49,548 bases of DNA, taken from positions 1-49,548 of the IMG/VR virus record IMGVR_UViG_3300030117_007285. One strand, 5' to 3'. How positions within the stretch are numbered: the stretch's first letter is position 1; each line of letters opens with the position of its first letter. The position numbers and the translations under genes were made by a program. Positions 34,476 to 38,929 of the stretch are shown in pieces. This stretch comes from a virus. The notes beneath the pieces were generated by a model. That model searched no databases and had not been told where the DNA came from. It saw only the letters and a program-made list of their open reading frames with translations.

Positions 34476-36527
34476 ATGGCTGATAATAATAGTAAAAACA
34501 CAAAGAATGCCGATTCAGTTTTATTTAAAAGACTGACAAAATTGTTTTCAGGCCCAATTATTAATTATCGTTCGCAAAATACTAGGCAGCTGCGCAGAAG
34601 AAAATTAGAAAAATATGCTACAACCTTTAATGATGTCGCCGGCCAAAAATTTGAGCGTCTAGATTACAATCCTTTTAATTCACTTTCATCTTATACTATG
34701 GGCGCCCAGAGTCGTGTACAAAGATACAATGATTTTGAACAAATGGAATACACACCAGAGATAGCATCAGCACTAGATATCTATGCTGATGAGATGACAA
34801 CGTTTAATAGTTTTCATAAAATGCTTTTAATTAAATCCTCCAATGAAGAAATAAAAGGCATATTAGAAGTGCTTTTTGAGCAAATTTTAAATATAAATTA
34901 TAATTTATTTGGTTGGTCTAGAACAATGTGTAAGTATGGAGATTTTTATTTATACTTAGATATTGATGACAAACTAGGTGTAAAGCAAGTTATCGGCCTA
35001 CCCTCAAAAGAAGTGCAGCGATTAGAGGGGGAAGACAAACAAAATCCAAATTATGTTCAATATCAATGGAACAGCGCTGGTTTAACTTTTGAAAACTGGC
35101 AGATTGCACATTTCCGTATTCTAGGAAACGATAAGTTTGCTCCATATGGAACTTCTGTACTCGACCCTGTGAGAAGAATTTGGAGACAACTTACACTTAT
35201 CGAAGATGCGATGATGGCTTACCGTATTGTTCGCTCACCAGAAAGAAAAGTTTTTTATGTTGATGTTGGGAACATACCACCACAAGATGTAGAGCAGTTT
35301 ATGCAACGATTTATCACTTCGATGAAAAGAAACCAAGTTGTAGATCCATCAACAGGGAAAGTTGATCTTCGCTATAATCCAATGTCTGTTGAAGAGGATT
35401 ATTATATTCCAGTTCGTGGTGGAACAAGCCAAACTAAAATTGATACAATTCAAGGCGGTAAAAATGCTGATGCAATAGAAGACGTGAAATATCTTAGAGA
35501 CAAAATGTTTTCTGGTCTAAAAATCCCTCAAGCTTACTTAACCTCTGGGGAAGGACAAGTAGAAGATAAAGGCACATTGGCGCAGAAAGATATTCGTTTT
35601 GCTAGAACTATTGGTCGTCTACAAAGGTGTGTTCTCGCAGAGTTGGAAAAAGTTGCTATGATCCATCTTTATGTGCTTGGGTTTAGAGGTAAAGATTTAT
35701 TATCATTTAAATTAAAACTGAACAACCCATCAAAAATTGCCGAGCTTCAAGAACTTGAATATTGGAAAGCTAGATTTGAAGCAGCAAAACAGGCGCCTGA
35801 TGGATTCTTTAGCAAACGATGGTTGGCAACAGAACTACTTGATATATCTGAGGAAGAATACTTACGAAACCAAAGAGAGCTTTTCTACGATAAACAAGTG
35901 TCTCTTGAACTAGAGTATGTCGGACAAGAAGCACAAGGTGGAGCAGCTGGCGGTGATGCCGCCGGCGGACTTGGTGGTGACTTAGGTGGTGACTTAGGTG
36001 GTGGAGATCTAGGAGCTGCCGCCGGCGAATTCGCTGCTGGAGAAGATATTGCCAAGCCTGAAGCCGGCGGCGAAGCTGCAGCCGCCACCCCAGAAGCTGG
36101 GGGTGACACTGCTCTATTAGCCACTCCAGGTGGAGACACTGGTGGAGAAGCTCCACCCCCAGCGGCCCCGCCGCCTGGAAAAAGAGATGATGATAAGAGT
36201 ATAAAATATGTAAACACAAAGACCGGTGAAACCACTACTACAAAGTCAAAAGACTGGTATATGCCAAAAAAAGTTGACAGAAGAGGCGCCGGCGCAAGAT
36301 CACGACACATAAAATCACTTGGATCACGCCCAGAGGCCGCTAGCATGACAAAGCGATATGTTAATGGTTTATCTCCCAATGCAAAAGAGATACTTGGGTT
36401 GTCTGCTTTAAGTAAAGGAATTTTTGAGAATCAAAACACTAATTATGATGAAGAGGAAAAGAAGCTTTTTGAAACAAAAGAAAGTGTAAAAAAACTCTTT
36501 GAAGATTTGGAGTTGCTAGATGAGTAA
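34476..36527 (+). CDS. 20: gp20-like portal protein with Gly/Ala-rich C-terminal insert
   Basis: This 683-residue portal is longer than T4 gp20 (524). Conserved portal segments include EYTPEIASALDIYADEMTTF near residue 90, NWQIAHFRILG, YGTSVLDPVRRIWRQL near residue 228, RSPERKVFYVDVGNIPPQDV, and VEDKGTLAQKDIRFARTIGR near 365. It forms the dodecameric DNA gate at the capsid vertex and nucleates head assembly and motor docking. Residues about 486-566 are a low-complexity insert rich in Gly, Ala, Asp and Pro, after which a charged tail ends the protein (YDEEEKKLFETKESVKKLFE). The gene overlaps the next by eight bases. Long reading frames on the opposite strand here are shadows of the low-complexity segment. 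Confidence 0.93.
   Translation: MADNNSKNTKNADSVLFKRLTKLFSGPIINYRSQNTRQLRRRKLEKYATTFNDVAGQKFERLDYNPFNSLSSYTMGAQSRVQRYNDFEQMEYTPEIASALDIYADEMTTFNSFHKMLLIKSSNEEIKGILEVLFEQILNINYNLFGWSRTMCKYGDFYLYLDIDDKLGVKQVIGLPSKEVQRLEGEDKQNPNYVQYQWNSAGLTFENWQIAHFRILGNDKFAPYGTSVLDPVRRIWRQLTLIEDAMMAYRIVRSPERKVFYVDVGNIPPQDVEQFMQRFITSMKRNQVVDPSTGKVDLRYNPMSVEEDYYIPVRGGTSQTKIDTIQGGKNADAIEDVKYLRDKMFSGLKIPQAYLTSGEGQVEDKGTLAQKDIRFARTIGRLQRCVLAELEKVAMIHLYVLGFRGKDLLSFKLKLNNPSKIAELQELEYWKARFEAAKQAPDGFFSKRWLATELLDISEEEYLRNQRELFYDKQVSLELEYVGQEAQGGAAGGDAAGGLGGDLGGDLGGGDLGAAAGEFAAGEDIAKPEAGGEAAAATPEAGGDTALLATPGGDTGGEAPPPAAPPPGKRDDDKSIKYVNTKTGETTTTKSKDWYMPKKVDRRGAGARSRHIKSLGSRPEAASMTKRYVNGLSPNAKEILGLSALSKGIFENQNTNYDEEEKKLFETKESVKKLFEDLELLDE
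35973..36008 (+). repeat. tandem 12-base repeat in portal low-complexity region
   Basis: GGTGGTGACTTA occurs twice in tandem (35973-35984 and 35985-35996) and a partial third copy (GGTGGTGGAGAT) follows. It encodes a short Gly-Gly-Asp-Leu repeat inside the Gly/Ala-rich insert. In-frame multiples of three allow length changes without frameshift, so this may be a slippage-prone length-variable spot. Confidence 0.75.
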
Positions 36528-37873: not shown

Positions 37874-38182
37874 ATGAATTTAATACATTTTGTTTTATGT
37901 GCTTACGGTTTGACAATGATCGTAGTGTATGGTTCTATATTTGAAAAATTTAGAAAATTAACGGATAAAGCAGGCTTCTACGGAAAGTTATTTAGATGTC
38001 CTTTGTGCTTTGGCTTTTGGGCTGGGGTATTTTTATGGAGTATTAATCCGTATACAGAACTATTTACATTTGATTACATTTTAATAAATGCTTTTCTTTT
38101 AGGGTGTCTGTCTTCAGGAACAAGCTATTTATTAGCAATGCTTATAAATGATTTTGGTTTGAAAATAAACCAAAAGGAGTAA
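37874..38182 (+). CDS. small membrane protein with CPLC motif (DUF1360-like)
   Basis: This 102-residue protein has three hydrophobic segments: residues about 4-22 (IHFVLCAYGLTMIVVYG), 46-57 (FGFWAGVFLWSI) and 68-92 (YILINAFLLGCLSSGTSYLL). The motif RCPLCFGFWAG (Cys42, Cys45) just before the second segment is the hallmark I associate with DUF1360-type membrane proteins of bacteria and phages, whose function is unknown. Cys pairs at a membrane edge may bind metal or be redox-active. It begins on the base after the previous stop. A membrane protein between head-assembly genes is unexpected; T4 head assembly does begin at the inner membrane, so an assembly-site anchor is one possible explanation. 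Confidence 0.6.
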   Translation: MNLIHFVLCAYGLTMIVVYGSIFEKFRKLTDKAGFYGKLFRCPLCFGFWAGVFLWSINPYTELFTFDYILINAFLLGCLSSGTSYLLAMLINDFGLKINQKE

Positions 38183-38184
38183 TT

Positions 38185-38292
38185 ATGCGTAACGAGTGGA
38201 CTTCAAAGTGGAAACTACAACCTGTCCGCCGCTGCTGCAGCGGATCGATAAACGTGCGGGTGGCGCCCGCAGCAAGGATTAATAATGGCTAA
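38185..38292 (+). CDS. 35-codon ORF in GC-rich leader of the protease gene
   Basis: A short ORF starts at 38185 behind an excellent ribosome binding site, AAAAGGAG six bases upstream, and ends at 38292, overlapping the first eight bases of the protease gene. Its product (MRNEWTSKWKLQPVRR then two Cys and an Ala/Arg/Asn-rich end) has Trp, Cys and Arg residues but no family I recognise. Its second half coincides with the GC-rich hairpin region, so the codons there may be by-products of RNA structure. It could be a genuine micro-protein, or a leader ORF whose translation opens the protease start. The strong ribosome binding site is the main argument; homologues elsewhere would decide. Confidence 0.4.
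   Translation: MRNEWTSKWKLQPVRRCCSGSINVRVAPAARINNG
38229..38271 (+). promoter_or_regulatory. two GC-rich hairpins before the protease ribosome binding site
   Basis: Two perfect stems sit in a row: CCGCTG-CTG-CAGCGG (38229-38243) and TGCGGG-TGGCG-CCCGCA (38255-38271). The second ends three bases before the AAGGA ribosome binding site of the gene at 38285. The stretch 38217-38277 is about two-thirds G+C in an AT-rich genome. Neither stem is followed by a T-run, so they are not intrinsic terminators. A role in translation control, mRNA processing or a structured RNA is inferred. Confidence 0.5.
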
Positions 38293-38929
38293 ACAACTTT
38301 TAAGAGAATTTTTTGAATTAAAATGCGACGATAGAGGATGTCAAGACTTATTAAATGAAAATGAGAAAAGAATGGTTACTCAAGGTTTTCTTGTCTTCCC
38401 TGCGAAATTACAACAATGTAACGTTAGAAATGGTAATGGCAGAACCTATCCACGCGATGTTTTAGAAAGAGAAGTTGAAAATTATCAAAAGTTGATTAGA
38501 GAAAATAGAGCTATTGGTGAGTGTGATCATCCTGACGATTCAGTTATTAATCTTAAAAATGCATCTCATATTATTACGAGAATGTATTGGGATGGCGATA
38601 GTGTATTGGGCACTGTTAAAGTGCTTAAAACACCCTCTGGAAACATTCTTAGAGGACTTTATGAGAGCGGCGTATTGTTTGGTTTTTCTTCTAGAGCAAT
38701 GGGCTCACTACAAGAGGGTCGCGACGATGATGGCAAATCAATTCAAGTAGTGCAGGATGATCTTCAGCTGATTTGTTTTGATGCGGTATCTGAGCCATCT
38801 TCACCAGGGGCTTATGTTTTGGAGCCCAAGTATGATCAGATTAAACTTAAAATGGCTGAAAATACGACGAAAAGTTTTTTCACCAAAGGTGATAGAATTA
38901 ATCGTATTCTAAACGAAATAAAATTTTAA
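38285..38929 (+). CDS. 21: gp21-like prohead core protease
   Basis: This 214-residue serine protease matures the prohead by cutting scaffold and capsid proteins. Expected catalytic residues are present: His82 in GECDHPDD and the serine pair 135-136 in FGFSSRAMGS, as in the S80 (gp21) family. Other family hallmarks are NGNGRTYPRDVLEREV near residue 50 and a late strand LICFDAVSEPSSPGAYVLE with an acidic residue near 167. T4 gp21 has 212 residues. It precedes a Gln-rich gene, the bS21-like gene and scaffold. Its leader is unusual, with GC-rich hairpins and a short overlapping ORF. T4 gp21 cuts after Glu in L/I-x-E sites; candidate sites are seen in the capsid protein N-terminus. Confidence 0.92.
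   Translation: MAKQLLREFFELKCDDRGCQDLLNENEKRMVTQGFLVFPAKLQQCNVRNGNGRTYPRDVLEREVENYQKLIRENRAIGECDHPDDSVINLKNASHIITRMYWDGDSVLGTVKVLKTPSGNILRGLYESGVLFGFSSRAMGSLQEGRDDDGKSIQVVQDDLQLICFDAVSEPSSPGAYVLEPKYDQIKLKMAENTTKSFFTKGDRINRILNEIKF

Follow-up and report, generated by a model that had tools for sequence, protein, structure and literature searches.

The window, meaning the whole stretch of DNA analysed here, covers 49.5 kb (49,548 nucleotides) of a 75.6-kb viral record. The locus is that of an uncultured T4-like phage and lies in a T4-like head gene cluster. This cluster runs from the portal gene (34476-36527; Portal_T4, E 6.8e-78) through two ORFs without a family, a small DUF1360-like gene, the micro-ORF described here, the prohead core protease and two small genes to a gene that, judged by its position, probably encodes the scaffold protein, followed by gp23, the major capsid protein. 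All features from the DUF1360-like gene to the protease lie on the + strand. The DUF1360-like protein (37874..38182) carries a CPLCFGFW motif and matches PF07098 at E 0.0025, short of the cut-off, and the protease (38285..38929) is a T4 gp21-like enzyme of the Peptidase_S77 family (PF03420, E 1.8e-28; phrog_207, E 7.7e-47).

The micro-ORF consists of 35 codons (MRNEWTSKWKLQPVRRCCSGSINVRVAPAARINNG; 38185..38292). Its Shine-Dalgarno sequence, AAGGAG (38174..38179), sits within the end of the DUF1360-like gene, 5 nt before the ATG, and its own end falls 8 nt inside the protease gene, which has the Shine-Dalgarno sequence AAGGA at 38274..38278. An earlier, sequence-only reading of this DNA had described a short ORF with a strong Shine-Dalgarno sequence that ends in the protease gene, as well as some 60 G+C-rich bases amid AT-rich DNA. 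Both descriptions hold, with a G+C content of 0.667 at 38220-38279 and of about 0.27-0.35 in both flanks. It had also placed two perfect hairpins before the ribosome site of the protease. Both exist in the window, hairpin 1 at 38229-38243 (CCGCTG-CTG-CAGCGG, -7.9 kcal/mol) and hairpin 2 at 38255-38271 (TGCGGGT-GGC-GCCCGCA, -10.6 kcal/mol), but only the second is conserved in relatives. The region as a whole folds no better than its own dinucleotide shuffles (z -0.63); folding energy alone therefore proves nothing, and support has to come from the relatives.

A scan with the protease yielded 79 loci. The micro-ORF is present in most of those that have enough upstream flank and a protease that is not too distant, either immediately upstream of the protease or ahead of an inserted gene. 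A peptide-alignment scan gave at least 600 candidate stretches, at least 504 of them confirmed, and a pattern scan contributed further loci. Relatives of the micro-ORF are found on at least 500 environmental viral contigs, although the collection matches may omit records very close to the window. The counts below refer to 163 distinct copies, which are not independent of each other. Each of 11 long records (92-204 kb) contains a single instance of the peptide pattern; the hairpin pattern accompanies it in eight of the 11, and only two of them have it elsewhere, once each. The micro-ORF and hairpin 2 form a unit within the prohead gene cluster, present once per genome.

Two cultured relatives that were inspected, with proteases 41% and 35% identical, have neither peptide nor hairpin, and searches of cultured phages with peptide or DNA queries returned no credible match (one match at E 10). 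The sequence-only reading had regarded relatives lacking both the stems and the ORF as evidence against it; distant relatives and cultured phages do lack both, whereas a large uncultured group keeps both. PHROGs, NCBIfam and PADLOC contain no match for the micro-ORF, PDB sequences gave chance matches only (E 0.8 or worse), and a Pfam HicB hit (E 0.019) was dismissed as a sub-threshold chance match. Rfam, searched at gathering and permissive thresholds, has no match at the site; the one sRNA match, below threshold, lies at a different position. Because the micro-ORF is below the length that most annotation pipelines call, it has probably gone unseen so far.

The DUF1360-like protein is usually encoded next to the micro-ORF, on its upstream side; motif and inspection place it at about 123 of 148 loci, where the motif takes the form CP(M/L)CxGFW. 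It is absent from cultured phages, and two 735-kb uncultured phage records contain a weak match to it. The gene that follows the micro-ORF is the protease in many copies and elsewhere a small gene beginning MKITKxQLKxIIKEE or similar, whose position suggests that it plausibly encodes a prohead core protein. Small genes are also inserted before or after the micro-ORF-hairpin unit in L002, L006, L007, L008, L037, L038, L087, L112, L117, L118 and L124, as though its edges formed a hot spot for insertion, and many of them begin MKITKxQLKxIIKEE or MKLTESQLKELIxEE. In Microcystis phage Mel-JY01 (L270, 2562-2789), a gene annotated as ribosomal protein S21 lies two genes past the prohead protease.

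The conserved core of the peptide (KWKLQPVRRCCSGS, 38206..38247) reads (K/R)W-x-LQP-VRRCC(S/K)GS, with variants [LI]-[QP]-[PE]-V-R-[RHN]-C-C-[SKN]-G-S. None of the 163 copies departs from V, R, C, C or G, and the full set of synonymous codons occurs for V, R, C and G. The switches in the core include Arg CGN/AGR and Ser TCN/AGY. Among distinct single-step codon variants, taken from a set not picked by the hairpin pattern, 18 of 20 are synonymous, as against 25% expected. Synonymous variation so far above expectation shows selection at the amino-acid level and, judged by its codons, ORF 38185-38292 is a real conserved micro-gene. The suggestion that it might be a micro-protein or leader ORF is borne out to this extent. 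Two marks of arrest leader peptides of the TnaC, SecM and Erm kind, a short ORF that precedes the gene it would regulate and selection at the amino-acid level, are found.

Conservation in the window is confined to the first 21 codons, that is, up to the final GS of the core. The length from start to GS ranges from 16 to 34 codons, and the N-terminal part varies in sequence as well. The ORF stops directly after GS in 103 of the 163 copies and reads on through the hairpin in the other 60, the window included. On the protease tree, this stop changed at least 12 times on well-supported branches and 22 times by parsimony. Thus, the stop is dispensable, and the 14 codons past the core in the window, with their overlap into the protease gene, are not the conserved part. 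Among stop-less copies, the codon after GS (38248-38250 in the window) is ATA in 29 of 60, compared with 0.7 expected, and in several separate groups. ATA makes up 2.8% of codons in the window's own genome and is not rare, which bears on rare-codon pausing in the stop-less forms. Third positions are G+C-rich only at core codons 16-21 (0.44-0.66 versus 0.30-0.40 expected; window 38230-38247 and the same codons in the 163 copies), not at codons 12-15, and the core cysteines are mostly TGC, though TGT is commoner in these phages. No conserved helix accounts for these G+C-rich third positions.

The sequence-only reading had also proposed a structured RNA, and here the two hairpins part. In hairpin 1, a palindrome of the RRCCSG codons (38229..38243), observed pairing equals that of column-shuffled alignments (4.26 versus 4.25), so it is a by-product of those codons. 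Its structure is not conserved and shows no covariation, and hairpin 1 was rejected as a selected structure.

Hairpin 2, on the other hand, consists in the window of a 5-bp stem, GCGGG/CCCGC, closed by a pentaloop (38256..38270), and its loop is UNRYG, or rarely GNGAG, in the family. Over 79 distinct sequences, 395 of 395 cells are paired (100%), and three of the five pairs have changed on both sides. The covariation score is 0.198 versus 0.071 when shuffled, with none of 500 shuffles as high, and sliding the partner strand by 1-3 columns lowers pairing to 38-52%. The middle pair (positions 11 and 21) is GC in 123, AU in 14, CG in 10 and UA in two of 149 distinct sequences, with no exception. 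The hairpin is also kept where it lies 3' of the stop codon, hence untranslated, which identifies it as an RNA element. Taken together, covariation and retention indicate that hairpin 2 is an RNA structure under selection. The covariation analysis suggested in the sequence-only reading, which had asked whether the codons or the stems are conserved, thus finds the core codons and the stem of hairpin 2 conserved, and hairpin 1 not. In two copies (L153 and L154), the peptide is present and the hairpin is absent from the expected place. L048 and L049 have a different, longer hairpin upstream of the protease (CCTCTCGGA...TCTGAGAGG) at another distance, and they are the sole peptide-bearing copies of the protease-selected set to do so. 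A pseudoknot between spacer positions 6-8 and the hairpin 2 loop was rejected, as no covariation was seen, and no alternative helix was found that most sequences form with excess pairing.

The two conserved parts stand at a fixed distance. In the window, the last core codon (Ser, 38245-38247) is separated from the stem by an 8-nt spacer (38248..38255). Since the peptide and pattern scans could favour hairpin-bearing copies, the fair count is restricted to loci fetched by the protease alone; there, the stem starts exactly 8 nt past the last core codon in 38 of 39 distinct copies, the exception being L048. In a wider set, with alternative registers allowed, the loop centre is constant in 83 of 84. 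Spacer positions 1-5 are variable, whereas 38 of 39 copies have C at position 6 (38253). In the same protease-selected copies, the stem-to-start distance for the next gene spans -8 to 36 nt, and the ORF start and the presence of the stop likewise vary while the spacing holds. A free peptide or an independent hairpin would not suffer from an insertion or deletion in the spacer, yet such changes are not tolerated. As no nucleotide is fixed between the codons and spacer position 6, only a reader of both codons and RNA can hold this ruler, and its natural reader would be the ribosome. A ribosome whose P site holds the Ser codon would have the start of the stem 11 nt downstream of its first P-site base; stem-loops are known to block A-site binding at 11-12 nt, with relief at 13 (PMC7282821).

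From comparative evidence we infer, with about even confidence, that the micro-ORF is a cis-acting leader in which the nascent peptide and the hairpin together pause a ribosome ahead of the prohead protease or core genes. When the last core codon (Ser) occupies the P site, nascent VRRCCxGS would lie in the exit tunnel and the base of the stem would lie at the mRNA entry. The stem would then hinder entry to the A site, of a release factor where a stop follows and of a tRNA where a sense codon follows. A block that acts on a stop or a sense codon alike fits the labile stop. With the hairpin beside it and the Shine-Dalgarno sequence of the next gene immediately behind, the paused or slowly terminating ribosome would set the output of that prohead gene, be it protease or core protein. 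It could do so by way of re-initiation or mRNA stability, or of transcription read-through in copies with a T-tract behind the stem. In support of a pause, conservation of the peptide stops at the presumed P site, and the length of the N terminus may vary freely. On the other hand, known pausing stems are stronger than a 5-bp hairpin, and this one would be opened routinely by ribosomes in the 60 of 163 copies whose ORF reads through it. In addition, the core fits no known arrest-peptide pattern across the whole family, and the next gene is not always the protease. Of the earlier proposal of a leader-peptide switch for protease dose, the leader part is favoured by the rigid spacing, whereas control of dose is only a candidate role, as another prohead-type gene is next in many relatives.

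The very strong conservation of VRRCCxGS, with its invariant cysteines, would also be expected of a free micro-protein of 16-35 residues, for example one that a head or host protein binds through a Cys-Cys metal or thiol motif, alongside an unrelated hairpin for RNA processing or binding. A single copy per genome and the tolerance of random C-terminal extensions suit this explanation, but it leaves the exact 8-nt distance to the hairpin unexplained, given the variable nucleotides 1-5 and the labile stop, and sixteen residues is short for a folded protein. We consider it unlikely, if still a serious candidate.

A leader peptide and a hairpin ahead of an operon are also the classical layout of a transcription attenuator, in which the hairpin would be a weak intrinsic terminator or polymerase pause, prevented by a ribosome held at the leader end. 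In 24.8% of copies, TTTT lies no more than 8 nt from the stem, versus 7.1% just upstream of other Shine-Dalgarno sequences, and at least six T of eight occur in 15.3% versus a background of 2.8%. However, three quarters of the copies, the window among them, have no T-tract, the stem is just 5-6 bp, and neither a conserved alternative helix nor conservation past the stem is seen. As a general explanation attenuation is improbable; with T-tracts in a quarter of copies, at 3-5 times background, it may serve part of the group, though not the window.

The invariants of the hairpin 2 loop and flank (C6, U14, R16, Y17 and G18) exceed what pairing requires, and the hairpin lies just ahead of the next Shine-Dalgarno sequence. 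Both would suit an operator, on which a phage or host protein blocks the ribosome site of the next gene, with the micro-ORF as a separate gene. This account, which could coexist with the ribosome model, leaves the fixed distance to the peptide codons unexplained, and by itself it is very unlikely.

Programmed recoding, in which a frameshift or T4-gene-60-like bypassing at GS would fuse the micro-ORF with the next gene, has the right anatomy in peptide, hairpin and nearby stop, and the window's KWKLQ-PVRR is similar to the gene 60 signal KKYKLQNNVRRSIKSSS (PMC11194080; 6 of 5000 shuffles as good). Recoding is nevertheless scarcely credible: the next gene is equipped with a Shine-Dalgarno sequence and start of its own, other members lack the resemblance (for L265, 1225 of 5000 shuffles score as well), and direct fusion is disfavoured because the frame of the next gene, set against that of the micro-ORF, takes all three values (57, 76 and 30 copies) and in-frame matched landing codons are not in excess (Gly 26 versus 19.8 and Ser 24 versus 19.7 when shuffled). 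A programmed -1 frameshift site was rejected on the same frame counts, and GGN-TCN is not a slippery heptamer.

The putative ribosome-pausing leader may represent a widespread regulatory class of phages, previously undescribed in the open-licence literature, in which a micro-peptide and a hairpin at fixed distance act on one ribosome, occlude its A site whether it contains a stop or a sense codon and so set the timing or dose of capsid maturation. We hold this broader view tentatively, at somewhat less than even confidence; the literature covered was open-licence papers, and an earlier description may exist, for example within a large small-gene catalogue. To our knowledge, there are very few natural elements that unite a nascent-peptide signal with a hairpin in A-site range, and the best studied of them is T4 gene 60. 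The hundreds of natural variants, with strict spacing, labile stop and covarying stem, provide a data set on how peptide and mRNA might jointly hold a ribosome, and they belong to an operon for capsid assembly in uncultured phages that are widespread.

We know of no such hairpin ruler in TnaC. Nevertheless, the leader shares with TnaC, which stalls at a stop codon (PMC8429421), a short ORF before an operon, conserved residues near the C terminus and a stop after the conserved end (103 of 163), and its Trp lies 12 residues before the last residue, the spacing of Trp12-Pro24 in TnaC. It differs in that this Trp is not invariant and the stop can be dispensed with, and it has no known Rho site or amino-acid sensing. 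T4 gene 60 take-off combines a nascent peptide signal, K14KYKLQNN21VRRSIKSSS, with a short 5-bp hairpin (PMC11194080, PMC7282821), which was seen in the A site, where it excludes RF1 at the take-off site (PMC7282821). The leader likewise joins a putative peptide signal to a 5-bp hairpin in a T4-like phage, and resembles gene 60 in sequence in the window's version. As regards a stop directly behind the take-off codon, the family has one after GS in 103 of 163 copies. In contrast to gene 60, the family has no bypassing or in-frame landing site, its hairpin begins 5 nt past the A-site codon instead of including it, and its conserved peptide extends to the P site, whereas in gene 60 the distance is 16-30 residues; a KKYK distant from the P site is not kept, the resemblance being limited to some members. 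Stimulatory hairpins of the dnaX type place the stem at a similar 11-12 nt from the P-site codon (PMC7282821), but here there is no slippery sequence, the stem is shorter and a conserved peptide is added. By analogy with these systems, the micro-ORF leader would work like a hairpin-assisted arrest leader peptide.
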